A DNA stretch of 64,000 nt from an uncultured Spirochaetota bacterium (GTDB lineage: Bacteria; Spirochaetota; Spirochaetia; Treponematales; Rectinemataceae), in contig CAIJMU010000044.1 in the NCBI GenBank assembly GCA_903821875.1, forward strand, positions 1 to 64,000, in the 5' to 3' direction. The position numbers were made by a program, and so were the translations under genes. This document shows positions 4,706-55,268 of the stretch, piece by piece. Positions within the stretch are counted from its first letter, which is position 1. Each line of letters starts with the position of its first letter. The notes beneath the pieces were generated by a model. That model was not told the origin of the DNA. It did not search any database and saw nothing but the letters and a program-made list of their open reading frames with translations.

Positions 4706-6253
4706 CTATTCCGTCTCCCAGCCCTCGATGTTGCGCGACTCTGCGTCGAAAACGATGCCTACCTGATGGAGCGGCCGACTATCGCTGCGGTATTTTTCCG
4801 CATAGCCCCGCTCCTGTAGCTGGGCAAGCGGGCGCTTGTCGCCACTTTTATCGAGGCTCTTCACCTTGAATTCGAAGATCCAGATTCCCTTTGCGGACTT
4901 TACCGTCAGATCGATCCTCCCCTTGTTTGTCACATCCTCGGGGATGACCTCGAAGCCCACCGACGCAAAGCAGGCATACACGACGCTCGCGTAATAGCCC
5001 TCAAAACCGGAGAGGCGATTCTTTCGGTACCAGTCGTGGGGAATCGATGCAAAAAAGGAGTGTATAACCTCCCGCAGGGTATCGGTGTCGCCAGAATCCA
5101 TCGCGCGCCTCAACCTGTTGTCGACTGGAGGGCTTTCGCTTCCTCGCAAGTTGCCAAGGAGGCTGCGACTGAAGGCACTGCGGACTTCGCGGTTGGGAAA
5201 ACCAAGCCGATAGCTGATTCCCTCGTCGGAGTTGCTGGACCATTCCTTGATGGTAAGGTACCCGGCCTGGAACAGGACTGTTTCCGGGCGGAGATTTTCG
5301 ATGTCGAAGGAGCCCAGGAGTTCCTCATCGGTGACAAGTCCGTCCAATTCCGGCAGAGTTCGCGGTTTTTCAGCCAGGAGCTTGAGGAGAAAAGTGGGCG
5401 TACCCGTCTCGAACCACCAGGCTTTGTAGATACGCTCGTCGAGGAAGAGGAGGATATCGAAGGGGTTGTAAACGGTATCTCCCGTCCAGGAGTAGCCATT
5501 GTACCAGACTCTCATCGCATCCATGTCCAGGCCCTCAAGATAATCGCTGAACGCCGTCTCGAGATCGGCTTGGGTGTAGCCGCAGATCGCCGAATAGCGG
5601 GCATCCACGGTGAGGTCCTTGAGATTGTTGAGACCCGAAAAAATCCCGGTCTTGGCGAACTTACTCACTCCGGTGAGGAAGACAAAGCGGAGCCATGGGT
5701 CCAGGGACTTGAATGAACCGTAAAGATCCTTGAGCATATCGCGTAGCTCGATAGCAAGCTTGGGATTTTCAAGGTTGTCCAGGATGGGCTTATCGTACTC
5801 ATCGATGAGAATCACCACCTTTTCGCCGCTCGCCTCGGAGACATGCCGCAGCAAGGCCTCAAAGCGGCCACCGATAGTTCCCGCAGGCAGGGTGAAGGAC
5901 CAGGTTTTCGCCCATTGCGCGAAAAGCTCCTCGATGCGTGCAGTCAATGCCTCCACCGATCGCGATGGTGAAAGCGACCAATCAATTCGAAGCACCGGAT
6001 GTTTGCGGGACCAATCCCAGCCCGATTCTGGGCTGTCCAGATAGAGGCCAGTGAACAATTCCCTTCTCCCGGAAAAGGCGCTGTCGAGGGTATCGACGAA
6101 GAGACTCTTGCCGAAACGCCTGGGTCGGGAGAGGAAGAAATACTTGCCTTCAGAAAGCATGGCTATGAAATGAGTCTTATCGACATAGGCATAGCCGCTG
6201 TTCCTGACCGCCGAAAAGGTCTGGATGCCGATGGGAAGCTTGGCCTTGCTCAT
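4706..6253 (-). CDS. AAA-ATPase-like protein with PD-(D/E)XK nuclease C-terminus
   Basis: 515 residues, the usual length for this family. N-terminal YVDKTHFI and the P-loop RPRRFGKS (about 44-51) with Walker B VVILIDEYDKP (about 147-157) mark the AAA-ATPase-like domain. The C-terminal third carries GRIDLTVK...IWIFEFKV, a D-(x)n-ExK nuclease core. These two-domain proteins are common, often multicopy, in anaerobic bacteria and their role is unsettled; mobile-element or defence functions have been suggested. It is divergent from the second AAA+ gene at 6419, and the long palindrome at 6362-6395 lies between them. Confidence 0.85.
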   Translation of the reverse strand: MSKAKLPIGIQTFSAVRNSGYAYVDKTHFIAMLSEGKYFFLSRPRRFGKSLFVDTLDSAFSGRRELFTGLYLDSPESGWDWSRKHPVLRIDWSLSPSRSVEALTARIEELFAQWAKTWSFTLPAGTIGGRFEALLRHVSEASGEKVVILIDEYDKPILDNLENPKLAIELRDMLKDLYGSFKSLDPWLRFVFLTGVSKFAKTGIFSGLNNLKDLTVDARYSAICGYTQADLETAFSDYLEGLDMDAMRVWYNGYSWTGDTVYNPFDILLFLDERIYKAWWFETGTPTFLLKLLAEKPRTLPELDGLVTDEELLGSFDIENLRPETVLFQAGYLTIKEWSSNSDEGISYRLGFPNREVRSAFSRSLLGNLRGSESPPVDNRLRRAMDSGDTDTLREVIHSFFASIPHDWYRKNRLSGFEGYYASVVYACFASVGFEVIPEDVTNKGRIDLTVKSAKGIWIFEFKVKSLDKSGDKRPLAQLQERGYAEKYRSDSRPLHQVGIVFDAESRNIEGWETE

Positions 6254-6361
6254 TGTCGCAGTGTACGACTTTTCCTCTGGGCTGGAAATGGTGCGCCGGG
6301 CTTCGAGTTCGTTGTCCGACTTGACAAAATCCTTTCAGGGAAGCACTGTTCACGCAAACAG

Positions 6362-6395
6362 CGCTAATATTGTGATATATTTCACAATTTTAGCG
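6362..6395. promoter_or_regulatory. 34-bp palindromic operator candidate with CRP-like core
   Basis: The element is symmetric about 6378/6379. Outer arms CGCTAA/TTAGCG flank a core TTGTGA-N6-TCACAA (6370-6387). Only the pairs 6368/6389 and 6376/6381 fail to match. The core is an exact fit to the CRP/FNR-type consensus TGTGA-N6-TCACA. It sits in an AT-rich divergent intergenic region, 24 bases before the ATG at 6419 and 109 bases from the opposite gene, so it could control both. Confidence 0.55.
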
Positions 6396-6418
6396 ATATT
6401 TGTGTGACGCGAGGTACT

Positions 6419-7753
6419 ATGGAAAGGGCAACCCTACAAGAGCTCGTGGAGTGGAAAACCTCCCCGAACCGAAAGCCACTCATCCTAAAGGGAGTCCGGC
6501 AATCTGGAAAAACCTGGCTGCTTCAGCATTTCGGAGCGATGCACTACCGAGATGTCGCGTATTTCAGCTTCGATGAGCAACCCGACCTCAAGCAGTTTTT
6601 CGAACTCGACAAGGATCCCGAAAGGATCCTCCGCAATCTCTCGATAGTACGGGGTTCGCCGATCGAGGCTGGACAGACTCTCGTGATTTTCGACGAGATC
6701 CAGGAATGCAACGCTGCCCTCAACAGCTTGAAATACTTCTGCGAGAAGGCGCCGGCCTACCATATTGCCTGTGCCGGTTCCCTCCTCGGGGTCGCGCTCT
6801 CGAAGCCTGCCGGTTTCCCGGTCGGAAAGGTCGATTTTCTCCATGTTCACCCGCTGGGCTTTACAGAGTTCCTCCGCGGGACAGGCGAGACAGAGCTTGC
6901 TTGCTATGTCGAGTCCATCGAAACCATCGAGCCCCTGCCTGAGCTTTTCTTCAAGCGGCTTTCAGAATACCTTAAGTACTATTTCATTACGGGCGGCATG
7001 CCCGAGGTCGTCGAACGATGGCGAGAGACGGGCGACGTGGCGATCGTGCAGAAGACCCTTTCGAACCTGCTGGACGCCTACGAACGGGATTTTGCCAAGC
7101 ACGCGGAACGAAGCGACTTTCCGAAGCTTTCCCTCATCTGGCATTCGATTCCCTCGCAGCTGGGGAGGGACAACAAGAAGTTCCTCTACCGTGCGATCAA
7201 GGAAGGGGCACGGGCGCGTGAATACGAGGATGCCCTGCAATGGCTCTGCGACGCGGGCCTCACCTACAAGCTTTCAAGGGTTGAGAAACCGGCTCTGCCG
7301 CTTCCTGCCTACGACGACATTTCGTCCTTCAAGCTCTATGCCTGCGACGTCGGACTGCTCCGACGGCTCGCGGGGCTCCCAGCCTCGGCCTTTGGCGAGG
7401 GGACACGCTTGTTTACGGAATTCAAGGGATCCTTGAGTGAGAATTTTGTTCTGCAAACTCTTGATCGCCAACTCGAAGTGATGCCGCGCTACTGGACTGA
7501 CGGAAAAGGCCGGGCCGAGGTCGACTTCGTTGTCCAGGTTGAAAATGATATCATCCCTATCGAGGTCAAGGCAGGAACCAGCACCGAAAGCCGCAGTCTC
7601 GCTTCATGGGCCCAGCGTTTCCCGGAGAAGGCTGGACTCCGTGTCCGCTTTTCGATGCGAAATCTCAAACGTGATGGCACCCTGCTCAACATCCCCTTAT
7701 TCCTGGCAGACCGGAGCATCGCGCTGATTTCCAAGGCGAATGCCTCTGGATAA
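6419..7753 (+). CDS. AAA+ ATPase with DUF4143 (AAA_14 family)
   Basis: 444 residues. ATG at 6419 is preferred (GAGGT just upstream); a GTG at 6404 is in frame. P-loop GVRQSGKTWLL (about 23-33), Walker B LVIFDEIQE (about 92-100), and a C-terminal DUF4143 region ending in AEVDFVV...IPIEVKAG, a nuclease-like D..ExK signature. Family members are widespread predicted ATPases without agreed function, frequently near mobile or accessory genes. Here the partner across the operator is another ATPase/nuclease-like protein, which suggests one accessory module. Confidence 0.85.
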   Translation: MERATLQELVEWKTSPNRKPLILKGVRQSGKTWLLQHFGAMHYRDVAYFSFDEQPDLKQFFELDKDPERILRNLSIVRGSPIEAGQTLVIFDEIQECNAALNSLKYFCEKAPAYHIACAGSLLGVALSKPAGFPVGKVDFLHVHPLGFTEFLRGTGETELACYVESIETIEPLPELFFKRLSEYLKYYFITGGMPEVVERWRETGDVAIVQKTLSNLLDAYERDFAKHAERSDFPKLSLIWHSIPSQLGRDNKKFLYRAIKEGARAREYEDALQWLCDAGLTYKLSRVEKPALPLPAYDDISSFKLYACDVGLLRRLAGLPASAFGEGTRLFTEFKGSLSENFVLQTLDRQLEVMPRYWTDGKGRAEVDFVVQVENDIIPIEVKAGTSTESRSLASWAQRFPEKAGLRVRFSMRNLKRDGTLLNIPLFLADRSIALISKANASG

Positions 7754-54646: not shown

Positions 54647-54682
54647 TTGACAGAATGTAACGCTAGCGCTACATTCTGTCAA
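54647..54682 (+). promoter_or_regulatory. hicAB promoter inside a 36-bp palindrome; leaderless start
   Basis: TTGACA (54647-54652), 17 bases, TACATT (54670-54675); six bases later the ATG. The region 54647-54682 is palindromic: 13-bp arms TTGACAGAATGTA/TACATTCTGTCAA around CGCTAGCG, with one mismatched pair (54660/54669). The predicted start site coincides with the ATG. Confidence 0.7.
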
Positions 54683-54872: not shown

Positions 54873-55268
54873 ATGGACTATCTCATCATCATCGAGAAGA
54901 CCGGCACCGGGTACTCCGCGTACGCTCCTGACCTGCCCGGCTGTATCGCCACGGCTTCGACCGTCGTCGAGGCCCGCAGGCTCATGCGCGAGGGCATCGA
55001 GTTCCATATCGAAGGGCTCCGAATCGAGGGCTACTCCGTTCCGCTTCCCTCCTCCGAGGCCCTCTTCTTCACGGTCGCCGATACCGGTGAGGTCTGCCGG
55101 GAGACCGTCGTGGAGACGCTCTACGACATCAAGACCTTCGCTGCCCGCATGGGCGTCTCTCCCTCGACAGTCAGGGTCTACGCCCATCGCTATCACATCG
55201 GCCACAAGATGGGCCGCGGCTGGGTCTTCACCGAGCGGGACATTGCGCGCGTCCCCTCATGGGCCTGA
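54873..55268 (+). CDS. hicB: HicB-type antitoxin with C-terminal HTH
   Basis: 131 residues. N-terminal HicB fold (YLIIIEKTGTGYSAYAPDLPGCIATA; EARRLMREGIEFHIEGL). The C-terminal part (ETLYDIKTFAARMGVSPSTVRVYAHRYHIGHKMGRGWVF, in pieces) is a helix-turn-helix that should bind the palindrome upstream of hicA. Confidence 0.92.
   Translation: MDYLIIIEKTGTGYSAYAPDLPGCIATASTVVEARRLMREGIEFHIEGLRIEGYSVPLPSSEALFFTVADTGEVCRETVVETLYDIKTFAARMGVSPSTVRVYAHRYHIGHKMGRGWVFTERDIARVPSWA

Follow-up and report, generated by a model that had tools for sequence, protein, structure and literature searches.

A strictly spaced repeat array as the probable private operator of a DUF4143 ATPase gene

The DNA in front of a DUF4143 ATPase gene carries an array of tandem palindromes, and homologues of this gene in many bacterial phyla have the same strictly spaced layout, usually each with its own private sequence. 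Judging from these sequences, the site is probably the private operator of the gene that follows it: the gene's own product would bind the array and repress its own promoter, a reading to which we give a probability of about 0.7. The tandem sites probably let a very common defence-type gene recognise and control itself. A position directly upstream of the gene and a sequence private to that gene fit an autoregulatory operator, and we infer binding by the gene's own product from the way in which the motif tracks the protein.

The array in the window

The window (the whole stretch of DNA that was analysed, 64 kb) holds the array between two genes that Pfam identifies as divergent ATPases. The features of this locus are:

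4706-6253, minus strand: divergent gene with PF09820 (AAA-ATPase_like) and PDDEXK_9 (PF08011), from Pfam; probably outside the system
6350-6407, no strand: the whole 58-bp putative operator, 24 of 29 pairs matching
6350-6375, no strand: putative operator unit 1, TCACGCAAACAGCGCTAATATTGTGA, of the form TCAC-N6-AGCGCT-N6-GTGA; from the sequence and a genome search
6362-6395, no strand: the 34-bp palindrome noted first, at the junction of units 1 and 2
6370-6387, no strand: CRP-like TTGTGA-N6-TCACAA, an exact match at the junction
6382-6407, no strand: putative operator unit 2, TCACAATTTTAGCGATATTTGTGTGA, 32 bp past unit 1; from the sequence and a genome search
6419-7753, plus strand: ATPase gene with AAA_14, a winged helix and DUF4143 (PD-(D/E)XK-like), from Pfam, PADLOC (PDC-S01), alignments and a model; start by homology

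The first-pass annotation had described a 34-bp palindrome with an exact TTGTGA-N6-TCACAA core between the two divergent ATPase genes. This holds: in CGCTAATATTGTGATATATTTCACAATTTTAGCG, 15 of 17 pairs match. The intergenic region, shuffled 2000 times with its dinucleotides kept, never gave this many, and 20 shuffled versions of the whole window yielded no palindrome of this quality. The description was incomplete, however, as the dyad symmetry extends past the 34 bp to 58 bp. These contain two tandem 26-bp palindromes, TCAC-N6-AGCGMT-N6-GTGA, whose starts lie exactly 32 bp apart. The 34-bp palindrome is the middle of the pair, and the CRP-like core is the junction between both copies; the site is thus indeed larger than a simple CRP site, as had been remarked. 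Half-sites are found at 6350 (-), 6371 (+), 6382 (-) and 6403 (+), which gives spacings of 21/11/21. By eye, 16 of the 26 positions are identical between the two units, and the second unit ends 11 bp upstream of the ATG at 6419. No sigma-70-type consensus promoter was located in 6200-6480.

On the plus strand of the 4.68-Mb genome, TCAC-N6-AGCGNT-N6-GTGA occurs with zero mismatches only as units 1 and 2. The 34-bp core has no second copy within the window at 0-3 mismatches, its pattern was not found in 29 other genomes of the family at up to 3 mismatches, and the palindrome was seen at none of the 23 other AAA_14 loci inspected in the same genome. Conservation became visible only when the comparison was of spacing and not of letters.

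The window has just one other palindrome of comparable quality, at 54648-54681 (16 of 17 pairs). It lies inside TTGACAGAATGTAACGCTAGCGCTACATTCTGTCAA and extends as far as the initiation codon of a small ORF that begins MKVSEIIREITDDGWEHVRTKGSHRQYRHPSKP, which is followed by an ORF at 54873 with MDYLIIIEKTGTGYSAYAPDLPGC. We take these two ORFs to resemble a HicA-HicB pair with an autoregulatory operator at the palindrome.

The open frame of the plus-strand gene spans 6404-7753. Since close homologues start with M-E-R, ATG 6419 is the most likely start, and not GTG 6404, which falls within the second unit of the palindrome. In the product, AAA_14 and DUF4143 are both above the curated Pfam cut-off (PF13635, 128.8 bits with a cut-off of 28.1; PF13173, 89.9 bits with a cut-off of 27), and the PADLOC model PDLC04786, for the candidate PDC-S01, is matched at E 6.9e-169. 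In this genome, AAA_14 is matched 26 times and PF09820 13 times (E <= 0.001).

Spacing and sequence across the gene family

Close homologues were collected as set A, which comprises 87 loci: 80 at 45-62% identity and 7 of 10 viral loci at 41-60% (the remaining viral loci, L169-L171, are truncated or 32% identical and were excluded). Judged by the titles of their records, the 80 loci come from Bacillota, Bacteroidota, Omnitrophota, Synergistaceae, Chlamydiae, Spirochaetia and Legionellaceae, among others, and one record is archaeal. Three homologues (L106, L115 and L143) have a stop codon within the matched stretch, at residues 209, 119 and 433, and are possibly decayed copies or sequencing errors.

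For the lattice analysis, the DNA before the start codon of the 87 loci was used. In these upstreams, TGTGA recurs on the same strand at 32 bp in 58 pairs, at 33 bp in 12 and at 64 bp in 15. TGTGA is followed by TCACA at 11 bp in 25 pairs, TCACA by TGTGA at 21 bp in 22 pairs, and the summed spacings of 43 and 53 bp also occur. The 21/11/21 spacing of the window is therefore the lattice of its homologues. As these spacings are near whole turns of DNA, the half-sites would face one side of the helix. TGTGA is densest close to the gene, with 12-13 per kb within 100 bp of the start; the figure drops to 5.3 per kb between -150 and -100, and to 0.3-1.4 per kb farther upstream and in the gene itself. 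At 25 of 60 lattice loci, the exact GTGA sites that were listed are all direct repeats on a single strand, where degenerate partners may exist. A self-repeat test (p<=0.05), which was later superseded by the lag test, detected direct repeats in 43 and inverted repeats in 27 of the 87 upstreams. As controls, windows far upstream gave 3 of 75 for either kind of repeat, and stretches within the gene gave 3 of 87 direct and 1 of 87 inverted.

Control of both flanking genes, as proposed in the first-pass annotation, is not supported by these loci, as the layout follows the DUF4143 gene alone. A PF09820 relative is near only 1 of the 87 homologues, where it lies downstream, and is never divergent; the 8 upstreams of PF09820 paralogues in the same genome (shared region excluded) have no comparable repeat. 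Conservation in relatives is thus seen for the DUF4143 gene and not for the PF09820 gene, and the latter is probably not part of the operator system.

Two further sets were picked by protein domain, with no prior inspection of the promoters. The source of set B was 136 loci, namely 26 AAA_14 loci of the same genome (the window gene included, as L011) and 110 loci of the phylum; 108 had a Walker-A pattern and 150 bp upstream, 104 of these were distinct and 103 free of N. Set C started from 110 loci in 23 other genomes, each reached because it holds a set A homologue. Of these, 7 had no Walker-A pattern, and 80 distinct upstreams were left once repeated entries and genes already in set A or B had been dropped. 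PADLOC scans of ten more DUF4143 proteins from sets B and C identified every one as PDC-S01.

The criterion for a lattice, a direct repeat at 32/33 bp with a score of at least 9, is strict. It was reached by 34 of 103 upstreams in set B and 27 of 80 in set C. Dinucleotide shuffles gave means of 0.75 and 0.65 (maximum 3 and 2), other pairs of lags 0-5 of 103 and 0-3 of 80, and stretches inside the same genes 0 of 183. Likewise, 235 upstreams of other genes showed no peak at lag 32 (identity 0.275, median 0.274). When the 183 genes were grouped at 50% protein identity, 32 of the 87 clusters held at least one lattice gene. Genes with the N-terminal type of the window (WK within the first 22 residues) have the lattice in 25 of 38 cases, the remaining genes in 36 of 145. 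The strict threshold is missed by 122 of the 183 genes, and also by the units of the window itself, whose best score is 6, at a different lag.

In sets B and C, many members of a subfamily with ITGPRQSGKTT (for example L172-L184) are without a 32-bp repeat and have one inverted repeat that surrounds a TTGAC-like box shortly before the gene, which is perhaps a one-unit version of the lattice arrangement.

The gene also occurs on plasmids. Seven of 60 matching records were examined, all from named isolates (Fusobacterium animalis, Glaesserella parasuis, Bacteroides thetaiotaomicron, Segatella copri, Vibrio coralliilyticus, Acinetobacter towneri and Ruminococcus albus), and the best repeat was at 32, 33 or 66 bp in all seven, with a weak score of 8 in Ruminococcus albus. 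The Vibrio and Acinetobacter plasmid genes (L404 and L405) have a near-identical unit, TTTTATGCGCATAAAA, at 32 bp, and the products of both share about 34% identity with that of the window gene.

The repeated letters vary from gene to gene, even inside one genome, as in GACAATTCTAAAGTATTATTTAGAATTGTC (L199) and TTGCATTATTCGGTCGAAAAATG (L250). Differing units are likewise found among the lattice genes of a gammaproteobacterial MAG (G132, the genome of L145). This 2.1-Mb genome has 40 DUF4143 matches (25 in the genome of the window, 27 in G101), an extreme expansion with mutually different putative operators.

Motifs were compared with proteins for 85 set A sequences (window included) and the 103 of set B; set C was left out. 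Between different genomes, a motif likeness of at least 9 was found in 85% of 73 pairs at 70% protein identity or more, in 45% of 500 pairs at 50-70%, in 22% of 740 pairs at 40-50%, in 14% of 358 pairs at 30-40% and in 5-6% below 30%. In 31 pairs of paralogues from the same genome, the motifs were not clearly more alike than in pairs of equal identity across genomes. At positions -11 to -7 before GTGA, repeats agree at 0.44-0.55 within a locus compared to 0.25-0.44 between loci. The motif follows the protein rather than the genome, which is not what a host-wide regulator predicts; the suggestion of a dedicated regulator made in the first-pass annotation stands. Covariation between residues and motif in 57 loci was weak: a single column, S238, in the first helix of the predicted winged helix, reached 0.29 (95% permutation limit 0.27), and no protein domain was significant.

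The ATPase and other candidates for recognising the array

An AlphaFold2 model of the protein was built on 57 homologues and has a mean pLDDT of 92.5. Alignment A2 is a selection of homologues from which the three genes with a stop codon in the matched stretch were left out; in alignment A1, the row of L046 includes nine extra N-terminal residues. The model consists of an AAA+ part, a winged-helix-like part (about 234-308, from helices and strands) and a C-terminal part. E341, E367, E382 and K384 are invariant in the 57 homologues, and D369 is conserved in at least 90% of them. From this conservation, we take E341/E367/D369/E382/K384 to be the PD-(D/E)XK active-site pattern, within residues 330-444.

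Residues 1-319 of the model have the NBD-helical-winged helix fold of STAND/Orc-type AAA+ proteins. A sequence search of the PDB with the window protein found no relative. The closest solved folds are the archaeal ATPases PABY2304 (2qen; Z 16.7, rmsd 4.4 over 267 residues) and SSO1545 (2fna; Z 15.6), followed by NLR, CED-4 and Avs proteins, and the Foldseek list contains DNA-bound archaeal Orc1 (2v1u, 2qby). Winged helices in STAND proteins often make no DNA contact.

For the private operator, we propose the following mechanism. The two 26-bp palindromes, 32 bp or three DNA turns apart, would present four half-sites on one face of the helix. The Orc/STAND-like AAA+ ATPase could bind this array as an oligomer via its winged helix and, once bound, would repress its own promoter. 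Its nucleotide state, or titration by other DNA, might then release expression or the activity of the C-terminal nuclease-like domain.

Could another factor recognise the array? A separate dedicated repressor encoded elsewhere, for example by a neighbouring defence gene, seems unlikely to us. Array binding by the ATPase is something that we infer, and a repressor of defence islands, RptR, is described in the accessible part of PMC12255303. However, the motif goes with the ATPase across phyla and on plasmids. Moreover, the open frames upstream of the homologues have no fixed orientation (of the 75 loci with enough flank, 42 have one in the same and 19 one in the opposite direction, and 14 have none), and one repressor per paralogue would be required.

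We regard it as quite improbable that the junction is the site of a CRP/FNR-type global regulator, so that host CRP controls one or both genes. The TTGTGA-N6-TCACAA core is exact, and the CRP/FNR homologue that the first-pass annotation proposed to look for is indeed encoded in the genome: L077, an HTH_Crp_2 protein with the helix REVVSR, which resembles the recognition helix of E. coli CRP, RETVGR. The proposed genome search for further copies gave 72 occurrences of the core at up to 2 mismatches compared to 22 for the reversed control, but among the matches listed the only exact core is the window site. The core is the junction of tandem 26-bp palindromes, and the half-sites of relatives are 32 bp apart and, in the 25 of 60 lattice loci mentioned above, on one strand only, unlike a CRP dimer site. 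Many other genes of the family bear unrelated sequences on the same lattice, and the motif tracks the protein, not the genome. A CRP/FNR site was therefore rejected as the main reading, as its inverted-dimer arrangement is not kept in relatives, where the 32-bp direct spacing dominates. Given the CRP-like protein and the excess of cores, host CRP may make chance contacts with the junction. Independently of the array, L077 and the 72 matches suggest a separate CRP-type regulon in the source organism.

Iteron-like tandem repeats beside an Orc-like ATPase, in a gene present on plasmids and in viral contigs, would also suit a site of recombination or replication or the end of a mobile element. We consider this very unlikely, as the repeats cluster in the final 100-150 bp before the start codon and, with no second core in the window and no second zero-mismatch site of the unit in the genome, there is no paired end copy. 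Least credible is a role of the palindrome as RNA: a near-perfect dyad upstream of a gene could fold as a leader hairpin or attenuator, but many relatives have direct-repeat arrays without exact dyads, the spacing is in whole DNA turns, and neither an Rfam match (6200-6500) nor a terminator-like site was found at this locus.

If the array is the private operator of its gene, the gene-specific 32/33-bp lattice means that the PDC-S01 ATPase-nucleases are probably sequence-specific DNA binders. Reading a gene's own promoter would then give the likely target sequence of each PDC-S01 protein, the lattice would constrain the geometry of the bound oligomer, and the DNA specificity of the family would become directly testable. 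The many natural protein-operator pairs could also be used for learning winged-helix recognition.

More tentatively, PDC-S01 proteins might form a large class of DNA sensors that resemble NLR and Orc proteins and address themselves: each would read its own three-turn array, with gene-by-gene specificity, and array occupancy would be the trigger of the ATPase-nuclease. Were this so, diverged specificity would keep dozens of paralogues in one genome insulated from each other. The switch would be a loss of occupancy, brought about by an invader that titrates, cuts or replicates DNA or by the entry of an element with the same array.

Comparison with known systems

The window gene shares AAA_14, DUF4143 and the model match with PDC-S01, a phage-defence candidate of PADLOC. 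According to the accessible part of PMC12988326, PDC-S01 ranks fourth in frequency among the defences of prokaryotes and consists of an ATPase joined to a PD-(D/E)XK-family domain, and experimental validation is pending for most such candidates. It is the most frequent individual locus in rumen genomes (PMC13356809, accessible part), and an expression table for Thermus in the part of PMC4406477 that could be consulted includes an AAA_14/DUF4143 gene with 'HTH motifs'. The promoter repeat lattice is a feature added here, absent from the published description as far as it was accessible: no mention of a tested mechanism, promoter repeats, autoregulation or DNA specificity of PDC-S01 was found in that part of PMC12988326, nor of promoter repeats in those of PMC13356809 and PMC4406477. 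A description of the 32/33-bp lattice was not found in the literature searched either, a body of work that mostly lies outside subscription papers and preprints.

In autoregulated operators of toxin-antitoxin and defence genes, a defence-type gene has palindromic repeats at its own promoter, as in the window; AbiEi binds inverted repeats cooperatively (PMC7319586, accessible part). The window differs: its large ATPase-nuclease is encoded by a single gene that has no separate antitoxin, and the lattice is fixed at 32/33 bp with a sequence private to the gene. Repeats also adjoin the gene in the case of archaeal Orc1/Cdc6 at ORB origin repeats and of plasmid Rep at iterons, and Orc1 and the window ATPase have an AAA+ module with a winged helix in common. 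In contrast to both, the sites of the window occupy the promoter of the gene, where nothing points to an origin, and its family has a nuclease-like domain and many paralogues in the same genome with differing sites. With CRP/FNR sites, the window junction shares TGTGA-N6-TCACA, but the half-sites of its family lie on a 32-bp lattice, often in direct orientation, and their specificity goes with the ATPase. Autoregulatory operators as such are a known kind; here, they would show an unusually strict geometry that recurs across a very common gene family.
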